Shown here piece after piece: positions 5,501-39,666 of a stretch of DNA of 64,000 nucleotides. The position numbers and the translations under genes were made by a program. Every line of letters starts with the position of its first letter. The first letter of the stretch is position 1. The DNA comes from Faecalibacterium longum CLA-AA-H243. GTDB taxonomy: Bacteria; Bacillota; Clostridia; Oscillospirales; Ruminococcaceae. The stretch covers positions 1-64,000 of the forward strand of contig NZ_JAJEQG010000008.1 in the NCBI RefSeq assembly GCF_020687245.1, written 5' to 3'. A model generated the notes under the pieces. It had not been told where the DNA came from. It did not search any database and saw nothing but the letters and a program-made list of their open reading frames with translations.

Positions 5501-5531
5501 ATAATGTATAAAACGACAGGGAGATTCCAAA

Positions 5532-6380
5532 ATGGATAAAAACATGACGCTGGAAAAGCGTATTGCCGCCGAGCTGTATTCCTATCAGGGCAAGATGAGC
5601 GTCTTTGTGGACGATTTGCACGGCCACACGGTCGAAATCGGCGCTGACGAGGAATTTGAGACGGCTTCCACCATCAAGGCATATATCCTCGCAGCCCTGT
5701 ATCTGCAGGCCAGCCGGGGCAAAGCCAGCCTCGAGGAAAAAATCACTTACAAGCCCGAGCACTTTGTGGACGGTTCCGGTATGCTCCGGGCGCTGGGCGT
5801 GGGCGCAAGTCTGAAAGTTAAAGACGCCGCCACCATGATGATCATCTGCTCCGACAACATCGCCACCAACATGGTCATCGACTATCTGGGGCTGGACACC
5901 ATCAACGCCTGCATCCGGGAGATGGGCTTTGCCCACACCGTCCTGCACAACCCGCTCCACTTTGATATTTACAACGACCTCGGCACCACGACGCCCCGGG
6001 ACTACGCCTCGCTGTTTGCGCAGGTGGCAAAGGGAACGCTCGTCAGCGCTGAGGCCAGCGCTGAGATGTTGGCCATCTTCCGTCAGCAGCATTACAATAC
6101 CATGCTGACCCACGACTTCCCTCAGTTCTATCTCGACTGCGAGGAGACCGGCGAGCCGGAACTCATCTGGGTGGCCAGCAAGAGCGGCAGCATGAACGCC
6201 TGCCGCAACGACGGCGGCATCGTCCACACCCCCTACGGCGAGTATGTCATCGTCCTGATGAACAAGGACTTCCACGACATCATCGAGTACAATGACCATC
6301 CCTCCATGGTCTACGGCGCCCGGGTGTCCCGGATGATACTCGACCAGATTTTGGCCTGCGAGGGTGAGCTGTACAAGTAA
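5532..6380 (+). CDS. Serine hydrolase with class A beta-lactamase fold
   Basis: A 282-residue protein with the three penicillin-binding motifs in the expected order: S46-T-I-K49, S107-D-N and K217-S-G. I see no clear counterpart of the class A E-x-x-L-N motif between them, and there is no signal peptide. It is therefore better called a beta-lactamase-related serine hydrolase (peptidase or esterase) than a resistance enzyme. It starts 31 bp after the dipeptidase gene in the same direction, so both may act on small peptides. The substrate is unknown. Confidence 0.85.
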   Translation: MDKNMTLEKRIAAELYSYQGKMSVFVDDLHGHTVEIGADEEFETASTIKAYILAALYLQASRGKASLEEKITYKPEHFVDGSGMLRALGVGASLKVKDAATMMIICSDNIATNMVIDYLGLDTINACIREMGFAHTVLHNPLHFDIYNDLGTTTPRDYASLFAQVAKGTLVSAEASAEMLAIFRQQHYNTMLTHDFPQFYLDCEETGEPELIWVASKSGSMNACRNDGGIVHTPYGEYVIVLMNKDFHDIIEYNDHPSMVYGARVSRMILDQILACEGELYK

Positions 6381-6420
6381 AATCGTGGAAAAAATAGGAA
6401 TATTAAGGGGAATCATAACA

Positions 6421-7191
6421 ATGGGTATTCAAATCAGCCTGCCGATGATGGCATTTCTGGTGTTCATGACCGGCTTTGCGGGCTTTGTCGATTCGGCAGC
6501 GGGCGGCGGCGGACTCATCAGCCTGCCGGCCTATCTCTTCGCGGGCCTGCCGCCTCACTATACTTACGCCACCAACAAATTCAGCGCCGCCTGCGGCACG
6601 ACGTTCGCCACGGCCAGCTTCTTCAAGAACGGCGCGATGAACCTCAAGGTCGGCATCCTCGCCGCCATCGGCAGCTTTGCAGGCAGTGCCTTGGGCGCAC
6701 ACATCGTCCTGATGCTCAGCGATGAGGTGCTGCAGATGATGATGTTCATCATCCTGCCCATCGCGGCAGTCGTCATCCTGTGGCGTCGCAATCTCCCGGA
6801 CGAGAACCGGGACGACGGCACCCTGAATTTGAAAAAGGCCCTGCTGGCCCTGGGGATCGGCCTCGGCATCGGTCTGTACGACGGCATGGTGGGGCCTGGC
6901 ACCGGGACCTTTGCCATCATCGCTTTTACCAGCCTGATGGGCTTTGACCTGCGCACCGCCAACGGCAACGCCAAGGTGCTCAACCTCGCCAGCAACTACG
7001 CCAGCCTCTTCACCTATCTGAGCAGCGGGCTGGTGGTCTTTCCGGTGGGCATCCCCTGCGCCATCAGCAACATCGTCGGCAACATCATCGGCTCCCACTT
7101 CGCCCTGAGAAAGGGCGCAAAGTTCATCCGCCCCATGATGCTCGTGGTGCTGGTGCTTTTGCTGGGCAAGCTCATCACGGATATGCTGTAA
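6421..7191 (+). CDS. TauE/SafE-family sulfite/organosulfonate exporter-type permease
   Basis: A 256-residue polytopic membrane protein. GFVDSAAGGGGLISLPA in the first helix and GMVGPGTGTF in the second half are the paired glycine-rich repeats of the TauE/SafE (DUF81) family. About seven or eight hydrophobic segments are visible. Family members move sulfur-containing organic anions, but the substrate here cannot be read from sequence. I chose the ATG at 6421, preceded by AAGGGGAAT, over an upstream one at 6364 that would overlap the serine hydrolase gene and add 19 poorly hydrophobic residues. Confidence 0.9.
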   Translation: MGIQISLPMMAFLVFMTGFAGFVDSAAGGGGLISLPAYLFAGLPPHYTYATNKFSAACGTTFATASFFKNGAMNLKVGILAAIGSFAGSALGAHIVLMLSDEVLQMMMFIILPIAAVVILWRRNLPDENRDDGTLNLKKALLALGIGLGIGLYDGMVGPGTGTFAIIAFTSLMGFDLRTANGNAKVLNLASNYASLFTYLSSGLVVFPVGIPCAISNIVGNIIGSHFALRKGAKFIRPMMLVVLVLLLGKLITDML

Positions 7192-7201
7192 GGAAAAACG
7201 A

Positions 7202-7242
7202 AAAGAGGCTGCCGTGCAGATGCACAGCAGCCTCTTCCTATA
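7202..7242. terminator. Bidirectional terminator between TauE/SafE and degV genes
   Basis: GAGGCTGC pairs with GCAGCCTC, flanked by an A-rich stretch on the left and T-containing sequence on the right. It lies between convergent genes. Confidence 0.7.
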
Positions 7243-7247
7243 TACTT

Positions 7248-8105
7248 TTAGTCGATGACCAGCCCGTTATCAAAGAAGGCCAGACCAAACGCACCGGGAC
7301 CGGCGTGGGTGCCGATGACGCAGCCAATCTGGCGCACCAGCGGCTCGGGAAGGCCGAGATTGTCCACCAGATAGGTCTGGATGGGGTTCACCTCGCGGGG
7401 GCTGATGGTGTAACCGGCCAGAGAGGGGAAACGGGGATTGACGCCGCCCAGCTCCTCTATCTTCTTGAAGAGGGCGACGTATGCGCCGGGCAGACCCCGG
7501 GCCTTACCGGCCATGGCGACTTTGCCCTCCTTGATGGTGATGAGGGGCTTGATGCCCAGCATCCCGCCGGCCACGGCGACGGCGGCGGGCAGACGGCCGC
7601 CCTTGCGCAGATACTTCAGGTCGTCGATGGCGGCGACGAGGTGCAGGTGCTCCTTGGCGTGTTCGAGGGTGGCGGCGATCTGGACGGCAGACTTGCCTTC
7701 ATCCCGCAGGTGTGCGGCCAGACGCACCAGCAGACCCTCGCCGAGGCAGACATTGGTGCTGTCCACGAAGAGGACGTTGTCCACGTTGGCCAGGTCTGCG
7801 GCCAGCTTCGCACACTGATAGGTGCCGGACAGCTCATGGGACAGGAAGATGCCCACGACCTCGTCTCCGGCGGCAGCAGCCTCGGCGTAAAACTTTTCGA
7901 ACAGCTCAGGGCTGGGCTGGCTGGTGGTGGGCAGCTTTTTGCAGCCGGCCATGTGCTCGTAGTACTCGCTGGGAGTCAGGTCCACGCCGTCCTGGATGAC
8001 GGTGCCGTCCTCGAGGGTGACGTTGAGGGGGATGACGTCCACACCCAGCTGTACGGCCTCGGCGGGCAGGATGTCGGATGCGGAATCGGTAAGAATGCGT
8101 ATCAT
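7248..8105 (-). CDS. DegV-family fatty-acid-binding protein
   Basis: A 285-residue DegV protein. ILTDSASDIL at the N-terminus, TTSQPSP near residue 70 and GTHAGPGAFGL near the C-terminus are family signatures that line the fatty-acid pocket. DegV proteins (FakB) present a bound fatty acid to the kinase FakA for phosphorylation and use in phospholipid synthesis; no fakA is in this window. The start at 8105 is set by GGAGGT 10 bp upstream; a longer frame to 8267 runs through the promoter and is rejected. Monocistronic, with its own promoter. Confidence 0.92.
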   Translation of the reverse strand: MIRILTDSASDILPAEAVQLGVDVIPLNVTLEDGTVIQDGVDLTPSEYYEHMAGCKKLPTTSQPSPELFEKFYAEAAAAGDEVVGIFLSHELSGTYQCAKLAADLANVDNVLFVDSTNVCLGEGLLVRLAAHLRDEGKSAVQIAATLEHAKEHLHLVAAIDDLKYLRKGGRLPAAVAVAGGMLGIKPLITIKEGKVAMAGKARGLPGAYVALFKKIEELGGVNPRFPSLAGYTISPREVNPIQTYLVDNLGLPEPLVRQIGCVIGTHAGPGAFGLAFFDNGLVID

Positions 8106-27115: not shown

Positions 27116-28627
27116 ATGGAAGAACAGAAGAAGAACCCCGCACAGGGCCTGTCTGAGAGCGAGCAGGTGCAGGTGCGCCGCCAGAAGCTGGCAGACCTGC
27201 AGGCTGCAGGCCACGACCCCTTTACCCTGACCAAGTTCCCTCAGGATGCTTACTCTGCTGACCTGAAGGAAGAGTTCAAGGACCTGCCCAACGAGACCGA
27301 CAGCGGTAAGAAGGTCGCACTGGCCGGTCGTCTGATGTCCAAGCGCGTCATGGGCAAGGCAAGCTTTGCCCATCTGCGCGACGATAAGGGCGACATCCAG
27401 CTCTACGTCCGCCGTGACGAGCTGGGCGACGACGCTTACGCTGCTTTCAAGAAGCTGGACGTGGGCGACATCATCGGCGTCAAGGGTGAGGTGTTCCGCA
27501 CCAAGACCGGTGAGCTGAGCGCCCGTGCCGAGGAGATCACTCTGCTGGCCAAGAGCCTGCGCCCCCTGCCCGAGAAGTTCCACGGCCTGACCGATACCGA
27601 GATGCGTTATCGTCAGCGCTATGTTGACCTCATCGCAAACCCCGAGGTCAAGGAGACCTTTGTCAAGCGCAGCAAGATCCTGAAGGAGATTCGTGCTTAT
27701 CTGGACGAGAAGGGCTTCCTCGAGGTCGATACCCCCATCCTGACCCCGTTCGAGATCGGTGCATCCGCACGTCCCTTCTACACCCATCACAACACCCTGA
27801 ACATGGACATGGTGCTCCGCATCGAGACGGAGCTGTACCTGAAGCGCCTCATCGTGGGCGGCATGGACCGCGTCTATGAGGTGGGCCGCATCTTCCGCAA
27901 CGAGGGCATGGACCCCAAGCACAACCCCGAGTTCACCACCATCGAGCTGTATCAGGCGTTCACCGATTTCCACGGTATGATGGACCTGGTGGAGGAGCTG
28001 TATAAGCGCCTCGCTCAGAAGATCTGCGGCAGCCTGGTCATCCCCTATCAGGGTAAGCAGATCGACATGGGCCACTGGGAGCGTTTGACCATGATCGAGG
28101 CCGTCAAGAAGTATTCCGGCGTTGACTTCAACGACTGGAAGACCGATGAGGACGCCATCGCCGCTGCCAAGGAGCACCATGTGGAGCTGCCCGAGGTTCC
28201 CACCAAGGGCGCCATCCTGGCCGAGTTCTTCGACGCCTTCGTCGAGGACAAGCTCATCCAGCCCACCTTCATCTATGATTACCCCGTCGAGATCAGCCCG
28301 CTGGCCAAGCGCAAGCCGGATGATCCCGCTTTCACCGAGCGTTTTGAGTACTTCATCGACTGCACCGAGTACGGCAACGCTTTCAGTGAGCTGAACGACC
28401 CCATCGACCAGAAGGGCCGCTTCGAGCGTCAGGTCGCCGAGCGCAAGGCCATCGAGCCCGACTGCAAGGCACAGGTCGATTACGACTACGTCAACGCTCT
28501 GGAGTACGGTCTGCCTCCCACGGGCGGCCTCGGCTTCGGTGTTGACCGTCTGGTCATGCTGCTGACGGACAGCGCTTCTATCCGTGACGTGCTGCTGTTC
28601 CCCACGATGAAGCCGATTGAGCAGTAA
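27116..28627 (+). CDS. lysS: Lysyl-tRNA synthetase, class II
   Basis: A 503-residue class II synthetase. An OB-fold anticodon-binding domain (about 65-170) is followed by class II motif 1 (residues near 190), motif 2 ([20 protein letters not shown]) and motif 3 ([17 protein letters not shown]). The gene is intact, but its last 30 bp, to just after the stop codon, are duplicated at 39085-39114; they form the attachment site of the element that follows. Integration therefore restores the final codons exactly. The native terminator is probably the one now at 39135-39182. Confidence 0.97.
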
Positions 28628-28628
28628 A
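28599..28628 (+). repeat. Attachment site, left (lysS 3' end)
   Basis: A 30-bp sequence beginning TCCCCACGATGAAG and ending GAGCAGTAAA, identical to 39085-39114. It covers the last codons and the stop of lysS. Confidence 0.9.
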
Positions 28629-28689
28629 ACACAAAATTAAAACGCAGGTACGATGAAATTTTGAACGGATTTCAAGCAACATCTGCGGT

Positions 28690-28785
28690 ACTACACCACA
28701 ACTACACCAATTTTGGGACGTTTTCCCGAAAAGGAGCCTTACAAAGCGGTGTGGTGTAAGAATCGAATAGGCGGATTGGTGTAGT
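28690..28785. repeat. Putative arm-type integrase sites, left
   Basis: Two ACTACACCA copies 11 bp apart, and two in reverse orientation about 50 and 75 bp further in. The same motif occurs three times, about 12 bp apart, at 38936-38967. Confidence 0.65.
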
Positions 28786-28811
28786 AGGTACACTGAACCC
28801 CAAACGCAAAA

Positions 28812-28857
28812 ATGCGGCAGCTATGTTGTGAAAATACAACGTAGCTGCCGCTTTTTG
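28812..28857. terminator. Bidirectional terminator at the end of the riboflavin operon
   Basis: GCGGCAGCTATGTTGT pairs with ACAACGTAGCTGCCGC (one G-T pair) and is flanked by A-rich and T-rich tracts on the two sides. Confidence 0.88.
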
Positions 28858-28968
28858 TTTCGTATAGAGATTTTATGCTGACAGGCAACTTCTCCTGTGG
28901 TTAAATCAATTTGTCGTTGGCAAGTGTCAAACACTCCTGATTTGGCATACGCCAAAATTTACGCCAAT

Positions 28969-29418
28969 TTAGCGCAGTTCCTCAAGCAATGCCGTGCATC
29001 CTTCCAGTATATCCTGCCATGTGGCTTCAAAATCTCCCGTGAACCATGGGTCTGCCACTTCACGGGGATGATCCGTATGCGCCATCAGCAGCGAGACTTT
29101 ATGCTGTGGGTCTCCGCCGACAAGCCGCAGGATGTCGCACAGATTACTTTCGTCCATGCCAATCAGATGATCATACCGTGCATAATCCAGCCGGGTCATC
29201 TGCCGGGCGGTCTTGCCGTTGCAGTCGATGCCATGTTCTGCCAGCTTCTGCCGTGCAGGAGGATAGACCGGATTTCCGATTTCCCATGCACTGGTGGCGG
29301 CTGATGCGATTTCAAATTGCTCGGATAGTCCTGCCTTGGACGTAAGGTCTTTCATCACATACTCCGCCATCGGGCTTCGGCAGATATTTCCGAGACAAAT
29401 AAATAAGATCCTGGTCAT
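28969..29418 (-). CDS. Low-molecular-weight protein-tyrosine phosphatase
   Basis: A 149-residue phosphatase. The P-loop C8-L-G-N-I-C-R-S follows the N-terminal strand and includes the nucleophilic Cys and Arg; the general-acid Asp is in DPWFTGD near residue 125. The length is normal. Last gene of the rib transcript, overlapping the winged-helix gene by 4 bp. A phosphatase in this place is suggestive, since the riboflavin pathway needs an unassigned phosphatase step between RibD and RibH, but in known cases that is done by HAD enzymes, not this fold. The target may equally be a phosphoprotein. Confidence 0.9.
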   Translation of the reverse strand: MTRILFICLGNICRSPMAEYVMKDLTSKAGLSEQFEIASAATSAWEIGNPVYPPARQKLAEHGIDCNGKTARQMTRLDYARYDHLIGMDESNLCDILRLVGGDPQHKVSLLMAHTDHPREVADPWFTGDFEATWQDILEGCTALLEELR

Positions 29419-29831
29419 GCCGGGTCGTTCTCCTTTTGGCTTACAAAAGCATAGCCGCCGTGGGTAGTGCGGATAAAGCTACCGCAGCCGGCCAGCTTCT
29501 TTCGCAGATTGGAAACGGTATTTGCCACGACCTTTAAGGTGTCGTCACAGTTTTGTCCCCACACAGCACGGAAAAGCTCTTCTTTTGAGAAGATTTGTCC
29601 TTCGTGGGAGGCAAGCATCAGCAGCAAATCGAACTCCAGTCGTGTAAGGGAGACTTTTCTGCCGTTGCACGACACTTCGTGGGTCATTCCGTCCAGTGTA
29701 AGCCCCGGAAGAACCAACTTCTCCCATGAATCAATGGATATTTGCTCTGCCTCGATGTGCTCTCGTTCCAGAAGCATCCGGATCTTCTGCTCTAATTCCG
29801 GGTCAGGCTGTCGGGTCTTTATAACGATCAT
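29415..29831 (-). CDS. Winged-helix (OmpR/PhoB-type) DNA-binding protein without receiver domain
   Basis: A 138-residue protein. Residues 45-130 are an OmpR/PhoB C-terminal domain: VSLTRLEFDLLLMLASHEGQ, FSKEELFRAVWG, then NTVSNLRKKL and IRTTHGGYAF. The N-terminal 40 residues are far too short for a phosphoacceptor domain and contain no Asp pocket. The start follows CAGGAG. It may be a one-component regulator or a remnant of a response regulator. It lies between ribH and the phosphatase gene, so it may act on the element's own genes; that is inference. Confidence 0.85.
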   Translation of the reverse strand: MIVIKTRQPDPELEQKIRMLLEREHIEAEQISIDSWEKLVLPGLTLDGMTHEVSCNGRKVSLTRLEFDLLLMLASHEGQIFSKEELFRAVWGQNCDDTLKVVANTVSNLRKKLAGCGSFIRTTHGGYAFVSQKENDPA

Positions 29832-29851
29832 GGCAAACTCCTGCGTGTATT

Positions 29852-30328
29852 TTACTCTGCGGCGGTATCCATTTCCCGGAGCAGGTTTACCATCTCGATG
29901 GCACTGACTGCACAGTCATAGCCTTTATTACCTGCTTTGGTGCCTGCCCGCTCGATGGCCTGTTCGATGTTTTCGGTGGTCAGAACACCAAAGAGGACGG
30001 GAACCCCGCTTTCCAGCGAGACCGTGGCAATGCCTTTGGAAACCTCATTGCACACATAGTCGTAATGGCTGGTAGAACCGCGAATCACGGCACCAAGGCA
30101 GATCACAGCATCATACTTTCCGCTTTTTGCCATTTTAGAGGCAACCAGTGGGATCTCAAAAGCACCCGGAACCCATGCAACATGAATATCAGCGTCCTGC
30201 ACATCGTGCCGGAGCAGACCATCCATTGCTCCGCTCAGAAGTTTGGACGTGATAAATTCGTTGAAGCGGGCAGCTACGATACCGACCTTGATGTTCTGAG
30301 AAACCAGCTTACCTTCAAATGTTTTCAT
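29852..30328 (-). CDS. ribH: 6,7-dimethyl-8-ribityllumazine synthase
   Basis: A 158-residue enzyme that condenses the ribityl pyrimidine from RibD with dihydroxybutanone phosphate from Rib[33 protein letters not shown] and GVLTTEN are the family motifs; the His in TSHYDYV acts in catalysis. Full length, expected to form 60-subunit shells. Fourth gene of the rib operon; the start follows GAGGT. Confidence 0.96.
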
Positions 30329-30349
30329 TTTTAAATACCTCTTTCGTTG

Positions 30350-31546
30350 TTAATATTCCAGAAGATGCCCCATCCGTGCCTGCTTCGTTTTCAGGTAAAA
30401 CAGGTCATACGGGGTCGCCGTCATCTGAATGGGTACGCGCTCGGAGATCTCCAGCCCAAACTCGGAGAGCTGATATACTTTGTCCGGGTTATTGGTAAGC
30501 AGGCGCAGGCTTTTTACGCCAAGTTCCCGGAGGATCTGTGCGCCGAGATAATACTCCCGTTCATCTCCATGGAACCCAAGAGCGAGATTGGCTTCCAGCG
30601 TATCCATGCCCTGCTCCTGAAGTTCATAGGCACGCAGCTTGTTGATCAGACCGATGCCCCGGCCTTCCTGCCGCATATAGAGCAGGATACCCCGGTCTTC
30701 TTTTTCGATCTGCGTCATGGCAGCGGCCAGCTGTTGGCCGCAGTCACAACGCAAAGAGCCAAATGTATCTCCTGTCAGGCATTCCGAGTGGACGCGGCAC
30801 AGAATATCCTTTCCATCGCCAATGTCACCTTTTACCAGTGCAATGTGATGCTCTCCGTTCAGGCGGCTCACAAAACCATAAGCTCTGAAGGTGCCATACT
30901 TGGTGGGCAGGTTCACTGCCGTCACCTGATCGACCAGTTTATCGTGACACTTGCGGTACTCCTGTAAATCACGGATGGTGATGAATTTGATCTGGAAACG
31001 CTCTGCCAGCTTTGCCAGTTCAGCGGTGCGCATCATCGTGCCATCCTCCCGCATGATCTCGCAGCACAGGCCGCATTCTTTCAGCCCTGCCAGACGGCAC
31101 AGGTCAACGGTTGCTTCCGTGTGACCGTTGCGCTCCAACACACCGTTCTTTTTTGCCAGAAGGGGGAACATATGGCCCGGTCTGCGGAAATCTTCTGCTT
31201 TTGCGTGATCGTCCACACAAGCCATCGCCGTAATGGAACGCTCTGCGGCAGAAATGCCCGTAGAAGTAGAAACGTGGTCGATGGACACCGTAAATGCCGT
31301 TTCATGGTTGTCGGTGTTATACTGCACCATCTGCGGAAATTGCAGCTTCTGGACGAAAGCCTCGGACATCGGCATACAGATCAGACCTTTGCCGTGGGTC
31401 GCCATAAAGTTGATGTTTTCGGTGGTGGCAAATTCGGCAGCACAGATGAAGTCCCCCTCGTTTTCACGGTCGGGGTCATCCGTTACCAGAATGATTTTTC
31501 CTTGCTTCAGGTCTTGCAAAGCTTCGGGAATGGTATTGAAGTTCAT
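30350..31546 (-). CDS. ribBA: Bifunctional DHBP synthase / GTP cyclohydrolase II
   Basis: A 398-residue fusion. Residues 1-200 make dihydroxybutanone phosphate from ribulose 5-phosphate: [10 protein letters not shown] binds the metal, and [10 protein letters not shown] and RRPGHMFPL are family motifs. Residues 205-398 open GTP, the first step of the pathway: SECLTGD, then CDCG give the zinc cysteines, and EGRGIGL with LTNNPDK complete the site. Both halves look intact. The start follows AAGGAGAG, 12 bp after ribE. Confidence 0.96.
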
Positions 31547-31558
31547 CGTAAACTCTCC

Positions 31559-32200
31559 TTAAAAGCCGCAGCGCAGCAGCATTTCTTTTGTGAGCGTGTT
31601 TTGCTTCGGTGTTTCTGATGGAAGCAGCCTCTCGATATATTTTCCAACAACATCGGTTTCCAAATTGACAAAATCCCCTTTGTGCCGTTGGTTCAGGTTC
31701 GTCTGACGGACGGTGTGCGGTATCGTGGACACGGAAAAGCCCGTAGGTTCCACCGCAGCCACGGTCAGGCTGATACCGTCTATTGTGATAGAGCCTTTTT
31801 CAACGACATAGCGAAGGATTGCAGGATCTGCATGAATGGTGTACCAGATAGCCGTATCGTCTTTTCGGATATTAGCAATGCGTCCGACGCCATCCACATG
31901 GCCTGCTACGATGTGTCCGCCAAAACGTCCGTTGGCCGGCATGGCACGTTCCAGATTGACAGCACTTCCAACGGTGAGCTGTGCAAGTGCAGAGCGGTTC
32001 AAGGTCTCGTGCATGACATCCGCAGCAAAGCTATCCGGGAAGAGCTGCCTGACGGTCAGACAGATGCCGTTGACGGCGATGCTGTCACCGATTCTGGTTT
32101 CTTCCAGAACCGTTTTTGCACGAACAGTCAGTACGGCAGAATGCTGTCCCCGATTGATGGATTTTATTGTTCCGACTTCTTCCACGATTCCGGTAAACAC
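31559..32200 (-). CDS. ribE: Riboflavin synthase, alpha chain
   Basis: A 213-residue enzyme that dismutates two lumazines into riboflavin and a pyrimidine. It is built of two similar lumazine-binding barrels: MFTGIVEEVG with NGICLTV near 45, and GHIVAGHVDG with DGISLTV near 145. It begins with GTG after GAGGTGGAG and overlaps ribD by 37 bp. All expected motifs are present. Confidence 0.95.
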   Translation of the reverse strand: MFTGIVEEVGTIKSINRGQHSAVLTVRAKTVLEETRIGDSIAVNGICLTVRQLFPDSFAADVMHETLNRSALAQLTVGSAVNLERAMPANGRFGGHIVAGHVDGVGRIANIRKDDTAIWYTIHADPAILRYVVEKGSITIDGISLTVAAVEPTGFSVSTIPHTVRQTNLNQRHKGDFVNLETDVVGKYIERLLPSETPKQNTLTKEMLLRCGF

Positions 32201-33288
32201 GGGTACTCCACCTCACTTTCGATCAGGAAATCTTTGCCAAGCTGTTCCAATCGGCTGTTCTTCAGGCGGAATGCAGCATCCGGAAGCGGGACACCTGCAC
32301 CCTCAATGGGTACTTTGGCATCCCTTCCTCCGAACAGCTTCGGGGCAATGTAAGCCTGTACCTGCTGCACGATGCCGCTTTCCAGTGCAGACCAGTTCAA
32401 GGTTCCGCCGCCTTCCAGCAGAATGCTGTCGATCTGCTCCTGCCCCAGCTGTTCCATCAGTTGCAGAAGATTCACATGACCGCAATGCGCTTCCAGACAA
32501 AGGACCCGGCACCCGGCCTGTTGATATGCCGCCTGCTTCTCCGGGTCGCCGCAGCAGGTCGCAAGAATGGTCGGAACCTGTTTGGCGGTCATGACCACCT
32601 GTGATTGCAGCGGTGTCCGCAAATGTGTATCACAGATGATCCGGACGGGATCACGGCCACCCTCTATCCGGCAGGTCAGCAGCGGGTCATCTGCTAGGAT
32701 GGTTCCGACTCCCACCATAATGCCGCGGAATCGGTGTCGCTGCCGTTGAACATGATTCCGGGCAATTTCCCCGGTGATCCATTTAGAAGCGCCTGTGTAT
32801 GTGGCGATTTTTCCATCCATCGTCATGGCGTATTTCATGGAAACGAAAGGGCGTTTTGTGGTGATATAGTGGAAGAATACCTTGTTCAGCGCATCGCATT
32901 CCTCTTGCAGAACATTTTCGGTCACATCTATGCCGTGTGCGCGCAGGATTGCAATTCCTTTTCCAGCCACCAGCGGATTCGGGTCAGCAGAACCCACGAC
33001 CACCCGGTGAATGCCCGCGTCCAGAATCGTATCCACGCAGGGCGGCTGCTTTCCGTAATGGCAGCACGGCTCCAATGTCACATACAGGGTCGCTCCCTGC
33101 GGATCTTCGGTGCAGGATGCCAGCGCATTGCGCTCCGCATGAGCCTGACCGTATCTCTGGTGCCAGCCCTGTCCGATGATCCTGCCCTCTTTTGCGACCA
33201 CGGCACCCACCATCGGGTTGGGAGATGTCCATCCGCAACCCTTTTTTGCAAGCTGCAAAGCCAGACGCATATACTCTTTGTCGTTCAT
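32164..33288 (-). CDS. ribD: Bifunctional riboflavin deaminase/reductase RibD
   Basis: A 374-residue fusion performing steps two and three of the pathway. The N-terminal deaminase has H50-A-E52, C75 and C84 as zinc site (TLEPCCHYGKQPPC). The C-terminal NADPH reductase covers about 145-374, with FVSMKYAMTMDGKIAT and ILLEGGGTLN. The ATG at 33288 lies 8 bp after GGAGG; an upstream ATG at 33321 falls inside the riboswitch terminator and is rejected. First gene of the operon, under the FMN riboswitch. Confidence 0.96.
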   Translation of the reverse strand: MNDKEYMRLALQLAKKGCGWTSPNPMVGAVVAKEGRIIGQGWHQRYGQAHAERNALASCTEDPQGATLYVTLEPCCHYGKQPPCVDTILDAGIHRVVVGSADPNPLVAGKGIAILRAHGIDVTENVLQEECDALNKVFFHYITTKRPFVSMKYAMTMDGKIATYTGASKWITGEIARNHVQRQRHRFRGIMVGVGTILADDPLLTCRIEGGRDPVRIICDTHLRTPLQSQVVMTAKQVPTILATCCGDPEKQAAYQQAGCRVLCLEAHCGHVNLLQLMEQLGQEQIDSILLEGGGTLNWSALESGIVQQVQAYIAPKLFGGRDAKVPIEGAGVPLPDAAFRLKNSRLEQLGKDFLIESEVEYPCLPESWKKSEQ

Positions 33289-33300
33289 CGTGTTGCCTCC

Positions 33301-33334
33301 AAAAGAAAAAGCCCTGAACAAAAACGTTCAGGGC
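33301..33334 (-). terminator. Expression-platform terminator of the FMN riboswitch
   Basis: GCCCTGAAC and GTTCAGGGC pair perfectly around 6 nt and are followed, leftward, by TTTTTCTTTT. It lies between the aptamer and ribD, so it would stop transcription when FMN is bound. Confidence 0.9.
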
Positions 33335-33443
33335 AAGCCGAAAAGACACAAGGGACCCTTGTGCAAAAAAGAAAGCTCCAGAATGCAAACGCATCCCAGA
33401 GCAGCCTCCACAAGCGCCGAACCGTGCGGGCTCTGCGCTTGGT

Positions 33444-33550
33444 ATCTTCTTTCATCCAGACTGTACTGTCGGCTTCGGAGTTTCACCGAATCATGCCTTA
33501 CGGCTCGTGGGCTGTACCACCGGTAGGGAATCGCACCCTGCCCTGAAGAT
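33444..33550 (-). ncRNA. FMN riboswitch (RFN element) aptamer
   Basis: Read leftward it has P1 ATCTTC/GAAGAT, then the highly conserved blocks AGGGCAGGGTGCGATTCCC, TACCGGTGGT, AGCCCACGAGC, GATTCGGTGAAACTCCGA and GCCGACAGT...AGTCTGGATG. This is a nearly canonical RFN element. With the terminator at 33301-33334 it would shut off the rib operon when FMN is plentiful. Confidence 0.96.
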
Positions 33551-33571
33551 TTCTGATTCAATTACAGCGGC

Positions 33572-33600
33572 ATTATAGCACGGCTCCTTTCGGATTGCAA
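33572..33600 (-). promoter_or_regulatory. Promoter of the riboflavin operon
   Basis: Leftward TTGCAA (33595-33600) and TATAAT (33572-33577), spacing 17 bp, about 15 bp before the aptamer. Confidence 0.85.
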
Positions 33601-33770
33601 GGGCATTCTGCAAACCGGGACGAAACCGGGATGAAGATGGGTACGAAACTTTTTGACTATTATTGCCTTGTCAAGAGGGTAGGCGTCGTCCAGCCCTCTC
33701 TCTTTTTGCCAAAGTTTCCCTTGCTTTTTCTTGCACCCTGCCGAAATCAGCGTATTCCCAAAACTTTTTG

Positions 33771-33799
33771 TTGACACGGCTCGATTTTTGTGGTAATCT
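33771..33799 (+). promoter_or_regulatory. Rightward promoter of the replication/mobilization genes
   Basis: TTGACA and TAATCT, spacing 17 bp. Confidence 0.6.
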
Positions 33800-33982
33800 A
33801 TCCCAACAATTGAATATAACATATTTTTACATATTCGTTCAGACCCTGCGGGGCTGAACATTTTGGCTTTCAGCCGTTACATAACCGACTAGCATGACCT
33901 TCCAGAAAAAGCGAAGGCATGGCTGGTCTGTTTTGTGACGGCTTTTTTGTTGCCGTTTTGCCTGTTGAACCTTGAAAACCGC

Positions 33983-34177
33983 ATGACCGTCTGCATGGGA
34001 TACCCGGCGATGACCCCCAAGTGGGAGAGCCGGAAAACGCCGCCGGAAGGGGGCAGGAAAGCCATGCAGGGAGAACGGCAGGATGTTGATTTCCCAGTTG
34101 CGGAGAAAAACGATGTGCTCAAAATGATCACATCGTTTTTCCGTAACGCCAAGAAAGGACGGTGTGCCTATGAGTAA
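33983..34177 (+). CDS. Possible small ORF before the helicase gene
   Basis: A 64-residue frame starting ATGACCGTCTGC and ending TAA at 34175-34177, overlapping the helicase start by 8 bp. It is charged and hydrophilic, ends KKGRCAYE and resembles nothing I know. The overlap suggests coupling, but no strong ribosome site is seen. It could be a remnant of the primase half missing from the helicase. Confidence 0.35.
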   Translation: MTVCMGYPAMTPKWESRKTPPEGGRKAMQGERQDVDFPVAEKNDVLKMITSFFRNAKKGRCAYE

Positions 34178-35489
34178 TTTTACCCCTGCATGGTTCAAGA
34201 AAGGTTTTTTCAACGAATCCCTGTTCTGTGACGATTTTCTGAGCATCCACCAACTGCTTTACTCGAATGGCGCATTTTTCACCCCGGACGGCAGAATGGT
34301 GGACCCCATGCCCCTGCGGTGTGAGATCTTCGAGATGATGCGTGAATACGTCGGGGCGAACCTTGCCAAGAAGGTCACCAATGTGGTGGACGTGCTGAAA
34401 CTGGCGGCACAGGTGGAGGACTTTCCGCCTGTCACCGACCGCATCGCACTGGCAAACGGCACCCTGTATCTGGACGGTACCTTTCAGGAGGGCAAGCCGG
34501 AGATCGTGCGCAACCGCCTGCCTGTCAAGTATGACCCGAAAGCCGCCCAGCCCGTCCACTGGCTGCGGTTTCTGTCCGACCTGCTCTACCCGGAGGACAT
34601 CCCCACCGTGCAGGAGTTCATCGGCTACTGCCTGATTCCCAGCAATAAGGGCCAGCGCATGATGGTCATCAAGGGCAACGGCGGCGAGGGCAAGTCGCAG
34701 ATCGGTGTGGTGCTGTCCCGGCTGTTCGGCTGCAACATGAAGGATGGCAGCATCGGCAAGATCTCGGAGAACCGCTTCGCCCGTGCTGACCTGGAGCACA
34801 CCCTGCTCTGCGTGGACGACGATATGCGGATGGAAGCCCTGCGCCAGACCAACTATGTCAAGTCCATCGTGACCGCACAGGGGCAGATGGACTTGGAGCG
34901 CAAGGGCAAGCAGAGCTATCAGGGTTGGATGTACGCCCGCCTGCTGGCGTTCAGCAATGGCGATTTGCAGGCATTGTATGACCGCTCGGACGGTTTCTAT
35001 CGTCGTCAGCTCATCTTGACCACCAAGGATAAGCCCCTGTCTCGTGTGGATGACCCGGACATTGCCGAGAAGATGGCGGCAGAGGTCGAGGGCATCCTGC
35101 TGTGGGCATTTGAGGGCTTGCAGCGGCTGGTGAAGAATGGCTTCCAGTTCACCGAGAGTGACCGTGCCAAGCGCAACCGGGAACTGGTGAAGCGGGACAA
35201 CAACAATGTGTTTGATTTCCTCGAATCCGAGGGCTACATCCGCCTGAAGGCGGATGCCTGCACCAGCTCGAAAGAGCTGTATGAGGTCTACAAGATGTGG
35301 TGCGAGGAGAACAGCCTGAATGCGATCAAGGCCAGAGGGTTCAGCGATGCGCTGATCGCCAACCAGCGCAGGTATAATCTGGAATCCACCAACAACATCG
35401 TCAATTCGTCCGGGCGGCGTGTCCGGGGCTTTATCGGCATTGAAGCCCTTGTGCAGCCCGACCTTACTCCCAACAGTTGGCGAGTATGA
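34170..35489 (+). CDS. D5/P4-type SF3 helicase (DUF5906-like) for element replication
   Basis: A 439-residue protein. A D5-type N-terminal region (about 10-125) leads to an SF3 helicase: Walker A G169-N-G-G-E-G-K-S176, Walker B near LLCVDDD (213-218) and the Asn-containing motif C in LLAFSNGD. C-terminal winged-helix-like sequence follows. P4-type replication proteins usually also carry an N-terminal primase; here it is missing, so the protein may rely on the host primase. The ATG at 34170 follows AAAGGA; a GTG at 34164 is also possible. Expected to unwind the element's origin, perhaps the hairpin field just downstream. Confidence 0.85.
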   Translation: MSNFTPAWFKKGFFNESLFCDDFLSIHQLLYSNGAFFTPDGRMVDPMPLRCEIFEMMREYVGANLAKKVTNVVDVLKLAAQVEDFPPVTDRIALANGTLYLDGTFQEGKPEIVRNRLPVKYDPKAAQPVHWLRFLSDLLYPEDIPTVQEFIGYCLIPSNKGQRMMVIKGNGGEGKSQIGVVLSRLFGCNMKDGSIGKISENRFARADLEHTLLCVDDDMRMEALRQTNYVKSIVTAQGQMDLERKGKQSYQGWMYARLLAFSNGDLQALYDRSDGFYRRQLILTTKDKPLSRVDDPDIAEKMAAEVEGILLWAFEGLQRLVKNGFQFTESDRAKRNRELVKRDNNNVFDFLESEGYIRLKADACTSSKELYEVYKMWCEENSLNAIKARGFSDALIANQRRYNLESTNNIVNSSGRRVRGFIGIEALVQPDLTPNSWRV

Positions 35490-35518
35490 CCCCCTATAAA
35501 GGAGAATTTGGGTGTTTT

Positions 35519-35571
35519 GCTGCGTACGTGTGTACGCAGCAGTCGGCTTTCTCTGTACGCACGTACGCAGC
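35519..35571 (+). repeat. GTACGC iterons with inverted repeat
   Basis: GCTGCGTAC and GTACGCAGC face each other around GTGT, followed by GTACGC at 35555-35560 and GTACGCAGC at 35563-35571. Confidence 0.75.
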
Positions 35572-35602
35572 GATTGACCGAAAACGCGCCATATAAGGGG
35601 CT

Positions 35603-35633
35603 TTGGTTGGTGGTCAAAACGACCACCAACCAA
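35603..35633. repeat. 13-bp-arm inverted repeat
   Basis: TTGGTTGGTGGTC and GACCACCAACCAA are perfectly complementary around the loop AAAAC. No T-tract follows, so it is not a terminator. Confidence 0.85.
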
Positions 35634-35732
35634 CCCCATAGCGTTAAGTGCCGGAAAGCGGCACTTGCCAGCATCCACCCAAATCCCCAAAATGGGAATC
35701 AGTGTGAGATGGCCGTTATCAGACCGTCTATC

Positions 35733-35759
35733 TGCCTGTTACCATTTTGGTAACAGGCA
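35733..35759. repeat. 11-bp-arm inverted repeat
   Basis: TGCCTGTTACC and GGTAACAGGCA around ATTTT. Perfect pairing. Confidence 0.85.
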
Positions 35760-35763
35760 AAAC

Positions 35764-35786
35764 CAGTGGGTCAAAATGACCCACTG
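35764..35786. repeat. 9-bp-arm inverted repeat
   Basis: CAGTGGGTC and GACCCACTG around AAAAT, starting 5 bp after the previous repeat. Confidence 0.85.
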
Positions 35787-35875
35787 AAAAAGCCGGACGA
35801 GCTGCGGGCAGGGATTCGCAAATCGTTGCTTGTCAGCTTGCCCGGTGCAGGAGTGCAGAGGGTGCAGCCCTTTGC

Positions 35876-35912
35876 CCCAGTGATATGATGCTGTGCGTCA
35901 TATGCTACTGGG
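35876..35912 (+). other. Candidate oriT stem-loop
   Basis: CCCAGT...ACTGGG and inside it ATATGATG...CGTCATAT pair around CTGTG. MobV relaxases act at an inverted repeat just upstream of their own gene, and this one ends 62 bp before the relaxase start. No nick site can be assigned from sequence. Confidence 0.5.
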
Positions 35913-35974
35913 TATTATCTGGCGCAAAACGGCGGCAGATTCAGCAGCTTCGCTGCTGCGTTCTCCCTGCCAAG

Positions 35975-37225
35975 ATGTTGAAACGGAGGGATGTCTATCT
36001 GAAGTTAACACGACACAATGGACGAGCCGGAGCACACGGCACCTATAACCCAAAGCACAATGACCGCAGTTTTAACCTTGCTAACAGTGAGCACATCGAC
36101 CCGGAACGAGCCAAGGGCAACATCTACTGGGACTGCTTTCACGGTTTCCGTTCGGCTCTCGACCCGCAAGACCCGGATGATTTGGCTGCGACTTTCTCGG
36201 ATGTGGAACGGCAGTTCTACGAAACCCACTACACGGCCTTTGTTGAAAGCCAGAACGAACGCAACGCCAAGATCCGGCACACGGAGCGCAACCGCTCCAT
36301 TCCTGACCTGCTGTCCAGCCGCAAGACCTGTCCGGAAGAGACCATCTACCAACTTGGAACGCTGGATGAACACGCTTCGGCAGAGGACTTGCTGAACATC
36401 GTCACCGAGTTCATTGACGAGTTCAAGACTAAGTTTGGCGAACACGTTCACGTTCTGGACTGGGCGCTGCATCTGGACGAAAGCACACCCCACATCCACG
36501 AGCGTCATGTGTTCGACTGCGGGAACAAGTACGGCGAGGTGGCACCCCAGCAGGAAAAGGCATTGGAAGTGTTGGGCTTCAACCTGCCCGACCCGGACAA
36601 GCCCCTCAGCCGCCGCAACAACCGCAAAATCACCTTCGATGCAGCCTGCCGGAAGATGCTGTTTGAAATCGCCAAACGTCATGGTCTGGAATTGGAGGAA
36701 GAAGCGGAGTACGGCAACCGCAAGTATCTCGAAAAGCAGGACTTCATCCTTGCCAAGCAGAAGGAGCAGCTTGCCGCCCAGCAGAGCAAGCTGGACGAAC
36801 TGACCCTGAAAGTTTCGGATATGGAGACCCTGCTGGAAAATGTTTCGGCTGCGGCCTATGACAAGGCGGTGGAGGTCGTGACGGACGTGGTACGCACCGA
36901 GACCCGCAAGGAAGATATGCGGATGATCGAGGACACGAAGAAGTGGGTGCTGTCGCCAGAGAGAAAGGCTCCCAAGGTTACACGGGAGTACACTGCCAAA
37001 CATCTGGACACTGTGCTGGACAAGTTTCTCAAGACCATGCAAACCACCACTACCCGCTTGCAGGAGAAGCTGCTGAAGCCGGAAGTCCGGCAGAAGGGCA
37101 AGGAGCAGGTCAAGGAGAAAGCACGAGATTCCGTTCTGCAACTGCTGAACCGCTTGCAGGCAGAACAGGCACAAAACAAACCAGCGGCACAACCCCGCAC
37201 ACAGGAGGGGCACTCGGAAATCTGA
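35975..37225 (+). CDS. MobV/Mob_Pre-family relaxase
   Basis: A 416-residue relaxase. H166-L-D168-E169-S-T-P-H173-I-H175 matches the HxDExxPHxH metal-binding motif of MobV (Pre/Mob) enzymes, which nick oriT and start DNA transfer. The N-terminal KLTRHNGRAGAHGTYNPKH is also typical, with an early His/Asn. Residues from about 250 to the end are helical and likely coiled coil. The start at 35975 is set by similarity of that N-terminus; the ribosome site is weak, and a frame open to 35885 would run through the stem-loop. It would use another element's secretion machinery. Confidence 0.88.
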   Translation: MLKRRDVYLKLTRHNGRAGAHGTYNPKHNDRSFNLANSEHIDPERAKGNIYWDCFHGFRSALDPQDPDDLAATFSDVERQFYETHYTAFVESQNERNAKIRHTERNRSIPDLLSSRKTCPEETIYQLGTLDEHASAEDLLNIVTEFIDEFKTKFGEHVHVLDWALHLDESTPHIHERHVFDCGNKYGEVAPQQEKALEVLGFNLPDPDKPLSRRNNRKITFDAACRKMLFEIAKRHGLELEEEAEYGNRKYLEKQDFILAKQKEQLAAQQSKLDELTLKVSDMETLLENVSAAAYDKAVEVVTDVVRTETRKEDMRMIEDTKKWVLSPERKAPKVTREYTAKHLDTVLDKFLKTMQTTTTRLQEKLLKPEVRQKGKEQVKEKARDSVLQLLNRLQAEQAQNKPAAQPRTQEGHSEI

Positions 37226-37302
37226 ACCTCATCGGGAGAGTTCGGAGCAGAAAGCTGGCACTTTCTGCCCCGGCACCCGGTTACAAGGATATGGAGGTGC
37301 AA

Positions 37303-37590
37303 GTGAAAGAAGTTTGCGTTTGCGAAGCAATGAAGTCCCCAGTGGGGACTTTAAGCAACGGAACGGTCTTGCGTCAGCAAGATGGAGGGACTAAGTCCCG
37401 ACAAGTTCCGATTTGGCAAAAGAGTAATCTGACCTTGGAGGAAGCGGCGGCTTACTCTGGGATCGGTATCAATAAACTGCGGTCAATGACCGATAGCGAT
37501 GAATGCAAGTTCGTCCTTTGGAACGGAACCAAACGGCTGATCAAACGCCGTAAGCTGGACGAATATCTGGACAAGGCATTCTCGATCTGA
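37303..37590 (+). CDS. Excisionase-family DNA-binding protein
   Basis: A 95-residue protein. Residues 40-95 (NLTLEEAAAYSGIGINKL through KRLIKRRKLDEYLDKA) are a winged-helix MerR/Xis-type fold close to the Tn916 excisionase type. The GTG at 37303 has GGAGGT directly upstream; an ATG at 37291 overlaps that site and an ATG at 37330 has none. It lies 108 bp before the integrase gene, where it would set the direction of recombination toward excision. Confidence 0.85.
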   Translation: MKEVCVCEAMKSPVGTLSNGTVLRQQDGGTKSRQVPIWQKSNLTLEEAAAYSGIGINKLRSMTDSDECKFVLWNGTKRLIKRRKLDEYLDKAFSI

Positions 37591-37697
37591 TGCGGTTCAA
37601 AAATTGACCGTTTGATGTTGCAGGGAGTCTTGCGTCATGGTATACTCATGGCGTAAGGCTCCTTTTCAACATTCTGTGAATGAAAAGGAGAGTTTAT

Positions 37698-38930
37698 ATG
37701 CAAAGACGTAAAGATAATAAAGGCCGTGTTTTGAAGGATGGCGAGGTCTACCGCAAGAGCGATGGGCTGTATATGTACCGTTGGACTGCGAAAAACGGAA
37801 AACGCCATACCATCTATGATGCAACCTTGGAGGGGCTGCGCGAAAAGGAAGAGAAGATCCAGCACGACTTGGCAGATGGCCTCCGCATCCCGGAGTGCAG
37901 CCTGACCCTGAATGACCTGTTTGAACTGTGGCGTAAGAACAAGGTGGGCTTGAAAGAGCATACCTTCGCCAATTACGTTTATATGTACAATCGGTTCGTC
38001 CGGGATGAGATCGGCATGATGAAGCTCAAGGACATTCGCAAGTCGGATATCCGCAGCTACTACAATGGCATCGTCCGCAATGGCAAGATGGCGTTGAACA
38101 CGCTGGAAACCATCCAGAATGTTCTCCATCAGGTCTTTGCGGTGGCGGTGGACGATGAGTACATCCGTGTGAATCCCACGGATGGTGTCCTGACGGCCAT
38201 TAAAGCCGCCCACCAGTACGAAACGCCCAAACGACACGCTCTGACCCTGCCCCAGCAGCAGGCGTTTCTGAATTTCATCAAGAAAACGCCGAAGTTCCAG
38301 CACTGGCTCCCGATGTTCACCTTCATGCTGGGTACCGGATGCCGCATCTCGGAAACGGTTGGCCTGTGCTGGGGTGACATCGACTTCGAGAGTGGGTTTA
38401 TCACCATCCAGCACAATCTGGTGTACCATGACCACGAGGTCGGTGGCTGCTATTTCACCATGTCCACCCCCAAGACTGCCGCCGGTAAGCGGGCAATTCC
38501 AATCTTGCCCGAAGTGCGGAAAGCGCTGGAGCAGGAACGCACCAACCAGCAGGAGCTGGAACTGGTATGCGAATACGAAATCGACGGAATCTCGGACTTC
38601 GTATTCCTGAACCGCTTCGGCCAGCCGCAGAATCCGCAGACGGTCAACCGCGCCATCAAGCGCATCAGTGTGGCCTACAACGAAGCCGAGCTGGAAAAGG
38701 CCGAAAAGGAAAAGCGGGAACCGCAGCTGCTGCCGCCTTTCTCCTGCCATAATCTCCGGCACACATTCTGTACCCGGCTGTGCGAAAATGAGACCAACCT
38801 GAAGATCATTCAGGATATCATGGGACACCGGGACATCAGCACCACGATGGAGATTTACGCAGAAGCCACCAAGGAAGCCAAAGCCCATTCCTTTACAAAT
38901 CTGAACGGTAAACTGGGCATTTCGGTCTGA
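37698..38930 (+). CDS. Tyrosine-type site-specific integrase
   Basis: A 410-residue recombinase. Residues 1-60 form an arm-binding domain, 70-165 the SAM-like core-binding domain and 180-400 the catalytic domain with R216 (GCRISE), H351-x-x-R354, H377 and nucleophile Y387 (MEIYAEA). Layout and length match Tn916/phage-type integrases. The ATG follows AAAAGGAGAG. It lies next to the right attachment site and almost certainly catalyses insertion at the lysS 3' end. Confidence 0.95.
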   Translation: MQRRKDNKGRVLKDGEVYRKSDGLYMYRWTAKNGKRHTIYDATLEGLREKEEKIQHDLADGLRIPECSLTLNDLFELWRKNKVGLKEHTFANYVYMYNRFVRDEIGMMKLKDIRKSDIRSYYNGIVRNGKMALNTLETIQNVLHQVFAVAVDDEYIRVNPTDGVLTAIKAAHQYETPKRHALTLPQQQAFLNFIKKTPKFQHWLPMFTFMLGTGCRISETVGLCWGDIDFESGFITIQHNLVYHDHEVGGCYFTMSTPKTAAGKRAIPILPEVRKALEQERTNQQELELVCEYEIDGISDFVFLNRFGQPQNPQTVNRAIKRISVAYNEAELEKAEKEKREPQLLPPFSCHNLRHTFCTRLCENETNLKIIQDIMGHRDISTTMEIYAEATKEAKAHSFTNLNGKLGISV

Positions 38931-38935
38931 AATCT

Positions 38936-38967
38936 ACTACACCAACTACTACACCACTTTTACACCA
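38936..38967 (+). repeat. Putative arm-type integrase sites, right
   Basis: ACTACACCA at 38936 and 38948 and TTTACACCA at 38959, phased by about one helical turn, directly after the integrase gene. Confidence 0.7.
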
Positions 38968-39084
38968 AATTGCCGGTAAGTTGTGGAGAGTTGCGTAGGG
39001 TGACGTACGGGAGCAGGAAAAAGAAAGCCGCATGGATAGGCTTATAAAGGAAAATAAAGCCATTTGTGAGCCTTCCTTGACCTG

Positions 39085-39114
39085 TCCCCACGATGAAGCC
39101 GATTGAGCAGTAAA
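39085..39114 (+). repeat. Attachment site, right
   Basis: Identical over 30 bp to the lysS 3' end at 28599-28628. Here it is not part of a gene. Confidence 0.9.
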
Positions 39115-39134
39115 TTTCCAATTTAAGCGAAACA

Positions 39135-39182
39135 AAGCCTGAAACTTCTTGATGTACCGAGAAGTTTCAGGCTTTTTCTTTT
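39135..39182 (+). terminator. Terminator, probably the original lysS terminator
   Basis: AGCCTGAAACTTCT and AGAAGTTTCAGGCT pair perfectly around 10 nt and are followed by TTTTTCTTTT. It starts 21 bp after the right copy of the lysS stop codon. Confidence 0.88.
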
Positions 39183-39414: not shown

Positions 39415-39666
39415 ATGAACAAACGGCTTTCTTGCCGTTACAATATGGATACCAATCGGGTGGAAGCCTGGTTCGAGGGTGGCACTACCCTTGCTATCGA
39501 CTGCATCGCCGTCGAGGACGAGTACGGCAACACCCCGGCACAGCGGGCAGAACTGGACTGGCTGCTCTACAACAAGCCCTTGGAGTATGCGCAGCTTGTG
39601 CTGGGTGGGGAGATCGAGCATTATCTCTCCCTCAGCTGTGACCACGGCAGGCTGAAAGATCAATGA
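39415..39666 (+). CDS. DUF6061-like small protein
   Basis: An 83-residue protein that resembles DUF6061 proteins I associate with Faecalibacterium and relatives: CRYNMDTNRVEAWF, a central IDCIAVEDEYG and ELDWLLYNKPLEYAQLVL. Function unknown. The ATG follows GGAGGT at 39402-39407 with good spacing. It lies alone between the lysS flank and the sucrose locus. Confidence 0.75.
   Translation: MNKRLSCRYNMDTNRVEAWFEGGTTLAIDCIAVEDEYGNTPAQRAELDWLLYNKPLEYAQLVLGGEIEHYLSLSCDHGRLKDQ

Follow-up and report, generated by a model that had tools for sequence, protein, structure and literature searches.

A complete riboflavin operon as probable cargo of an integrative element of mobilizable type in the 3' end of lysS in Faecalibacterium longum

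Integrative mobilizable elements (IMEs) with MobV relaxases, among them Tn4451, Tn6215, and IMESag-rpsI, combine an integrase with a relaxase and have no conjugation apparatus. Most of the IMEs described in the same paper are 5-15 kb in length, some have replication genes, and a large share of their variable cargo is drug resistance, the word "vitamin" having no occurrence in the main text (PMC5704250). In Streptococcus, integrative and conjugative elements (ICEs) are described that use a tyrosine integrase, target the 3' end of lysS, and are bounded by direct repeats from the gene end, which are its last 17 bp in one ICE and a more internal 13 bp in two (PMC4701971). Here, we analysed a stretch of 64,000 nucleotides from Faecalibacterium longum CLA-AA-H243 (contig NZ_JAJEQG010000008.1, positions 1 to 64,000; "the window"), in which an element at 28599-39114 encloses a complete riboflavin (rib) operon next to lysS. 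It resembles the IMEs in size, in pairing an integrase with a putative relaxase, in having a replication gene, and in its variable cargo; it differs in that its relaxase is divergent and its cargo is a whole vitamin operon with a riboswitch. It resembles the Streptococcus ICEs in having a tyrosine integrase, in its lysS target, and in its repeats, and differs in the length of the repeats (30 bp) and in having no conjugation module. We consider it likely that this is an integrative element of IME type that sits in the lysS 3' end and carries the complete riboflavin operon, and that riboflavin synthesis in the sampled genus is accessory, horizontally acquired, and originally from a Lachnospiraceae-like operon. 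What was observed for this explanation is the anatomy of the element with its repeats, lysS sites that are empty, siblings with a different cargo, rib at five locations, one common block, identity above that of a core gene, a foreign gene tree, and intact open reading frames (ORFs).

The target gene, lysS, is an ORF at 27116-28627 (+ strand, as are all backbone features below), and its 3' end, compared over 28 lysS loci, is the attachment (att) site. A direct-repeat search found attL at 28599-28628 and attR at 39085-39114, and a 1,001-base query running across lysS and the left end gave two matches in the window's own genome, its own place and attR. The two copies are identical at 30/30 positions and 88% identical over 42 bp. 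Between them lie a Tn916-type tyrosine integrase gene, int (37698-38930; PF02920 61.6 bits and PF00589 107.3 bits), xis of the Tn916-Xis family (37300-37590; PF09035, 75.6 bits), both above the Pfam cut-offs, and a replication gene for a P4-type primase/helicase (34170-35489; TIGR01613, the P4-type primase C-terminal model, 123.9 bits; phrog_864, E 3.5e-92). These findings bear out the sequence-only reading of this DNA, made without database searches, which had named two identical 30-bp repeats of the lysS 3' end around integrase, excisionase-like, and replication genes. The Integrase_DNA and Tn916-Xis domains are shared with the Tn916 Int/Xis family. Tn916 has a low target specificity, in contrast to the specific lysS target here. 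Pfam matches to type IV secretion or coupling-protein families were absent among the 10 named genes between the att copies; the coupling-protein family PF02534 has seven matches in the window's own genome, which makes a helper possible. PADLOC gave no match for four element proteins.

The lysS site was then compared across the genus. The 31 Faecalibacterium species genomes were searched with the lysS end; 28 lysS loci were read, two genomes had no match, and one had a 24-base match alone. By BLAST, four loci (G015, G025, G006, and G009) join lysS directly to the window's downstream sequence, eight, including the window, have the left arm of the element, and 16 have neither. G015 and G025 hold a single copy of the 30-mer and are clean empty lysS sites, while G006 and G009 have extra att copies 12-25 kb downstream. 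Because empty lysS sites exist, integration is supported. The native lysS terminator (39134-39177, beyond attR) stands directly 3' of lysS in four printed empty-site sequences and is here separated from lysS by the element; a hairpin at the left end (28814-28851; 17 pairs, then a T run) probably ends the lysS transcript instead. The left arm (28629-28787), common to rib-less siblings, has TACTACACCA-type repeats at 28689, 28701, and 28777, and a repeat search found more at the right end (38935-38971). Repeats of this type at both ends are candidate arm sites of the integrase. In G026, the lysS 3'-end match on another contig (L261, G026:C16, about 8783) stops 19 bases short, and the gene end at the att core is altered there, as if through replacement by an element; a match in G030 (C1:2460435) ends at the same query base.

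Rib-less siblings with the same backbone were found in G005, in G022, and on contig C36 of G026. The last of these (L062) spans 7,801 bp, att to att; in its slot (5228-7471) lie genes for an ArsR-type regulator, an ArsP permease, a thioredoxin-like protein, and a protein of the low-molecular-weight (LMW) phosphatase family, which we read as ArsC-like. Since the siblings carry other cargo, a cargo site lies between the left arm and the replication gene. A similar set of arsenic genes was seen by eye after lysS in G029 (L267, 2182-3854). The ends of the G026 contigs overlap by exactly 77 bases, C14 end with C36 start and C36 end with C7 start, both at the att edge; neither 77-mer was found elsewhere in the stretches read, and no further att copies in G026 were listed outside C7, C14, and C36. 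That these contigs are joinable yet unjoined suggests a further junction in the reads. A junction of right end to left end, 124 bases long in G026, would not be long enough for an assembly to retain it as a contig, and a circle or tandem copy of the rib-less C36 element fits the contig ends. On C7 and C14 (L061, L259, L260), further lysS-type att copies are likewise occupied by elements, whose integrases are related (47-49% identical).

The cargo is a cassette of 4,664 bp on the - strand (28973-33636, promoter to last codon). In order of transcription it has a promoter-like TTGCAA-17-TATAAT with TG before the second hexamer (33572-33600, motif search), an FMN riboswitch (33440-33554; RF00050, 110.2 bits, compared to a cut-off of 66.2), an intrinsic terminator as expression platform between riboswitch and ribD (33311-33334; 10 pairs, then a T run), ribD (32164-33288; PF01872 and PF00383), ribE (31559-32200; PF00677), ribBA (30350-31546; PF00926 and PF00925), and ribH (29852-30328; PF00885, 211.5 bits). 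Two more genes follow, for a stand-alone OmpR-type winged-helix protein (29415-29831; PF00486, 64.8 bits) and a member of the LMW tyrosine phosphatase family (28969-29418; PF01451, 120.8 bits). Thus, the operon of aptamer, ribD, ribE, ribBA, and ribH is complete, with all matches above the cut-offs, as had been claimed from the letters; the winged-helix and phosphatase genes had been overlooked. Promoter-like sites numbered five compared to 4.4 expected by chance, and terminator-like sites in the stretch eight compared to 6.5 expected, so it is their place that supports the two sites named here. The cassette is self-contained, as promoter, riboswitch, terminator, and the genes down to their last codon all lie within it. 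Across carriers, 59 of 60 gene copies are open, and dN/dS is 0.07-0.19. The one interrupted copy, ribD of G030 (L060), lacks one base of a T run at window position 33242, which may be a read error or a real break. A weaker possibility is that the LMW phosphatase supplies the phosphatase step of the pathway, for which the operon otherwise has no gene. Another LMW phosphatase gene, with a DNA identity of 74-76%, was seen in G000 (C11:143433-143863) and in G006 (C12:484340-484788), where it adjoins a distant integrase gene.

Full-length RibBA was found in 10 of the 31 genomes (10 of the 22 that are at least 90% complete), and RibH (PF00885) in the same 10, one copy each; these two proteins were used to search for rib copies. 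With them, the sole other rib match was a truncated RibBA of 69% at a contig end in G010 (79% complete), and the search for a second operon, which the sequence-only reading had proposed, gave nothing besides it. Nor is rib fixed at lysS in the relatives, since the same block, present in 10/10 carriers (4,664 bp; 4,663 in G030), occupies five locations. The first is the lysS-type att site (G000, G011, G028, and G026). The others are the 3' part of a rumA-like gene (PF05958; G029 and G030), an island (G003 and G009), a site beside a resident serine-recombinase gene (G006), and a site near FMN-binding-domain genes (G025), where rib lies in an element with its own Mob_Pre relaxase. With empty lysS sites and rib at other places, neither of the two results that would have refuted the interpretation of a rib operon on a mobile element was found. 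That interpretation was supported, with transfer inferred then as now, and the claim has to be widened, since the operon is also found in other contexts.

Rib-less counterparts were found for three of the other locations: for the rumA-like location in G028, with 4 or 59 bp between the flanks; for the island in G025 and G030, with 55 bp and with one island segment on the opposite side, so that the region was also rearranged; and for the G006 site in G020, which is nearly empty (70 bp). The left flank of the G006 site with the recombinase only was seen in G000, G009, and G022. For an uninterrupted context of the G029, G030, G003, and G009 copies, nine loci with a left-flank homologue (67-80%) were found, and none had the right flank. 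The cassette ends are the meeting point of differing flanks, three kinds on the left and two on the right; within a kind, similarity continues. The idea that the ends are themselves recombination sites was weakened, as the junctions share at most a few bases by eye. In the stretches read, the lysS context (except for the truncated G026 element) and G025 alone had an intact integrase beside rib; recombinase-like remnants were seen by eye beside the block in the rumA-like and island contexts. Just past attR of the window lies a DUF6061 gene (39415-39666; PF19537, 131 bits), and similar small genes were noted near the rib-region borders in L063 and L065. In G025 the FMN-binding-domain genes (L065, 561-3030) are about 5 kb from the block, perhaps by chance.

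The identity of the cassette was compared with that of lysS in pairs of carrier genomes. Cassette identity among carriers was 94.4-99.8% and exceeded lysS identity in 44 of 45 pairs (medians 97.9 and 91.2%; correlation 0.30), the exception being G009-G030 (97.1% for the cassette, 97.9% for lysS). Between G000 and G011 the cassette was 99.8% identical, rep 99.6%, xis-int 97.5%, the left arm 96.5%, mob 90.6%, and lysS 93.4%; between G000 and G028 the same values were 99.1, 94.3, 97.5, 85.7, 91.6, and 91.4%. Parts of the backbone also exceed the lysS identity, and the element itself is a mosaic. The G+C content is 53.1% for the cassette, 53.9% for the backbone, and 59.9% for lysS. Among the matches listed for 396 genomes of the family (seven of the genus), those outside the genus reached up to 73% over 1.6 kb or 66-68% over 3.4-3.7 kb. 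In a RibBA tree of 118 rows, the genus grouped with two loci from metagenome-assembled genomes, L154 and L155, among Lachnospiraceae-rich rows; the collection rows were the best 80 of 586 confirmed matches, which favours near relatives, and L228 was left out. A second RibBA tree gave the joint group of the genus with L154 and L155 a support of 99.9. An approximately unbiased (AU) test rejected placing the genus in one clade with 18 rows of its own family (p-AU 0.00066); six rows had been dropped before the test (four long branches and two duplicates), and 5 of the 15 genus rows are named duplicates of our G-numbered genomes. L154 and L155 have rib and the winged-helix gene, that of L154 following ribH and being 51% identical to the cassette's; no integrase was found in them by eye or by tblastn with the element proteins, and no LMW phosphatase match. 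Because this match is missing there, the LMW phosphatase gene was probably a later addition.

These results bear on the view that riboflavin synthesis is ancestral to the genus and was repeatedly lost in the rib-less species. Four of five F. prausnitzii strains were reported to have the operon, and the same paper takes the patchiness as loss, stating that related strains "apparently have lost" it, and calls B2 the least variable vitamin phenotype at the species level (PMC6593275). Presence is also clustered on the lysS tree, as detailed below. Against an ancestral origin stand the five locations, the empty sites, a cassette identity far above that of lysS, the position of RibBA apart from the same family, and the difference in G+C. 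We disfavour repeated loss and regard it as highly improbable.

Mobilization of the element would depend on the gene before xis, which encodes a putative, divergent MobV-like relaxase (35981-37225). In seven aligned homologues, the motifs HxDExTPHI, RHN, and HNDR are invariant, and the H after HxDExTPHI is Q in one; they follow what we take to be the MobV motif pattern. A homologue of 62% gave a Mob_Pre match (E 0.0025, below the cut-off), and one of 56% gave none. Before mob, at 35728-35920, lies a candidate origin of transfer (oriT) with perfect hairpins at 35733-35759 and 35764-35786 and another hairpin at 35876-35912. The second of these shows compensatory changes in 4 of 10 pairs over the 10 sequences aligned (an available row, L274, was not included), with 96% of cells paired. 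Compared with shuffled sequences, the hairpin at 35876-35912 has a much better fold (z -5.2), and it was found again in 9 of the 10 relative loci examined. A third stretch nearby, 35510-35575, has a good fold as well (z -4.7), so hairpins alone cannot single out oriT. A 90% relative of the relaxase gene was seen on a 151-kb contig of a viral collection (L302, IMGVR_UViG_650377940_000003).

Several observations weigh against the explanation that we prefer. The relaxase assignment is putative, resting on motifs and one sub-threshold match: the protein itself, named a relaxase in the sequence-only reading, had no Pfam, NCBIfam, or PHROGs match at the thresholds used, and it did not reach the cut-off of the MobV family model, hence "MobV-like" only. 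BLASTP and hhalign comparisons with the recognised MobV of L065 were negative, the AlphaFold model was poor (pLDDT 45.6), and a PDB sequence search gave one match at chance level. No intact integrase was seen beside rib in the rumA-like, island, and G006 contexts, and the G006 recombinase gene is split over two frames. In G026, the element around rib is truncated, and the contig on which this rib copy adjoins an att copy has no lysS. For the G025 location, none of the three genomes examined gave a clean empty site. A plasmid collection gave no match, and IMG/VR no RibBA, with one Int relative of 25% and the one Mob relative of 90% named above. No circle or transfer was seen for any rib-bearing element; the nearest physical sign of movement is the att junction in the G026 assembly graph, which belongs to a rib-less sibling and is possibly a tandem copy. 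Finally, rib presence needs four changes on the lysS tree (4-6 over bootstraps), compared to a mean of 8.4 in shuffles, none of 500 being as low, and all carriers fall outside two rib-less starred groups, where they are 10 of the 14 remaining genomes.

A single early gain, with rib later relocated, recombined, and to some extent lost, also fits this clustering. Another possible explanation is that rib was gained once, early in the F. prausnitzii group, and spread within it mainly as flanks recombined homologously and as elements exchanged it with one another, conjugative mobilisation playing little part. The G003/G009 island and several kb of its chromosomal flanks are 97.7-99% identical, compared to 92.4% for lysS, and between G000 and G011 both cassette and rep exceed 99% with mob at 90.6%, which speaks for such exchange; the three of five contexts without an intact integrase point the same way. 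However, distant chromosomal sites and differing backbones also need site-specific movement, and two clean empty lysS sites exist. We regard this account as possible, if somewhat unlikely. It is also conceivable that the element is a decayed, immobile remnant with a cargo that is effectively chromosomal now. The lack of a circle for any rib-bearing copy and the truncation in G026 would agree with decay, but int, xis, rep, and mob are all open in the window, the att copies are identical, and the Int protein is 99% identical in G005, G011, G026, and G028, which makes a remnant decidedly unlikely.

A phage origin was considered and set aside: five records labelled "phage" matched, none of them annotated, and the four that were fetched are virome scaffolds marked UNVERIFIED, with no rib gene in the matched stretches. 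Scaffolds filed as "Bacteriophage sp." with pieces related to this element family are L272, L273, L274, and L303 (MT837647, MT839064, MT836903, and MT837937). MT837937 starts in the riboswitch end of the cassette (from window position 33508) and runs outward.

FMN riboswitches were counted in the 31 genomes. Each of the 10 carrier genomes has at least two, and G009 has three. Among the 21 non-carriers, 16 genomes have a single one; two were counted in G013, G019, and G021, three in G010, and none in G017. In the two genomes read, G000 and the rib-less G005, the non-rib riboswitch precedes a gene for an ECF substrate-binding protein, which we read as RibU. On that reading, the cassette adds synthesis to an importer.

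We infer excision and transfer of the rib-bearing element, the use of a helper, an oriT, and prototrophy in culture. Returning to a mobilizable element with rib as cargo, Int and Xis would excise it at the 30-bp repeats, and the replication gene would maintain the excised circle. The relaxase would nick the hairpin region before mob, and a co-resident conjugative element could then move the circle. In the recipient, the cassette would convert a riboflavin-importing cell with RibU into a producer at low FMN. On this explanation, the cassette has also been traded between the lysS-type element and other mobile or island contexts. A stronger form, to which we give even chances, is that riboflavin prototrophy in Faecalibacterium is wholly mobile, with an operon-exact cassette that moves as a unit between unrelated elements and islands, has no fixed home, and lets species switch between B2 consumer and producer.

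There are general precedents for such cargo in the gut. Vitamin B biosynthesis genes are enriched on gut chromosomal mobile genetic elements, in a paper whose main text has no occurrence of riboflavin (PMC6907783), and the gut plasmid system PS486 has a cargo gene named for "riboflavin biosynthesis" (PMC10914615). The latter is a Bacteroides plasmid with that gene named, in contrast to the integrative element with a full operon described here. Within the genus, riboflavin production was predicted for one new Faecalibacterium species and is not listed for another in the accessible text (PMC12056005). Among open-licence papers, supplements apart, none was found that places the Faecalibacterium riboflavin operon on a mobile element.

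Vitamin auxotrophy of abundant gut bacteria is often read as a property of the lineage that arises by loss. Here, B2 synthesis looks gained, is patchy between close species, and lies on integrative elements, and it looks like a spreading trait rather than a lineage-fixed one; carried in this way, transfer could redistribute it. The ligands of MR1 are derived from precursors of riboflavin. A use of riboflavin in extracellular electron transfer has been reported or proposed for Faecalibacterium, and riboflavin made by gut microbes has been connected with the activation of T cells. Because riboflavin is tied to both of these processes, carriers of the cassette may differ from strains that lack it in their redox behaviour and in their visibility to the immune system.

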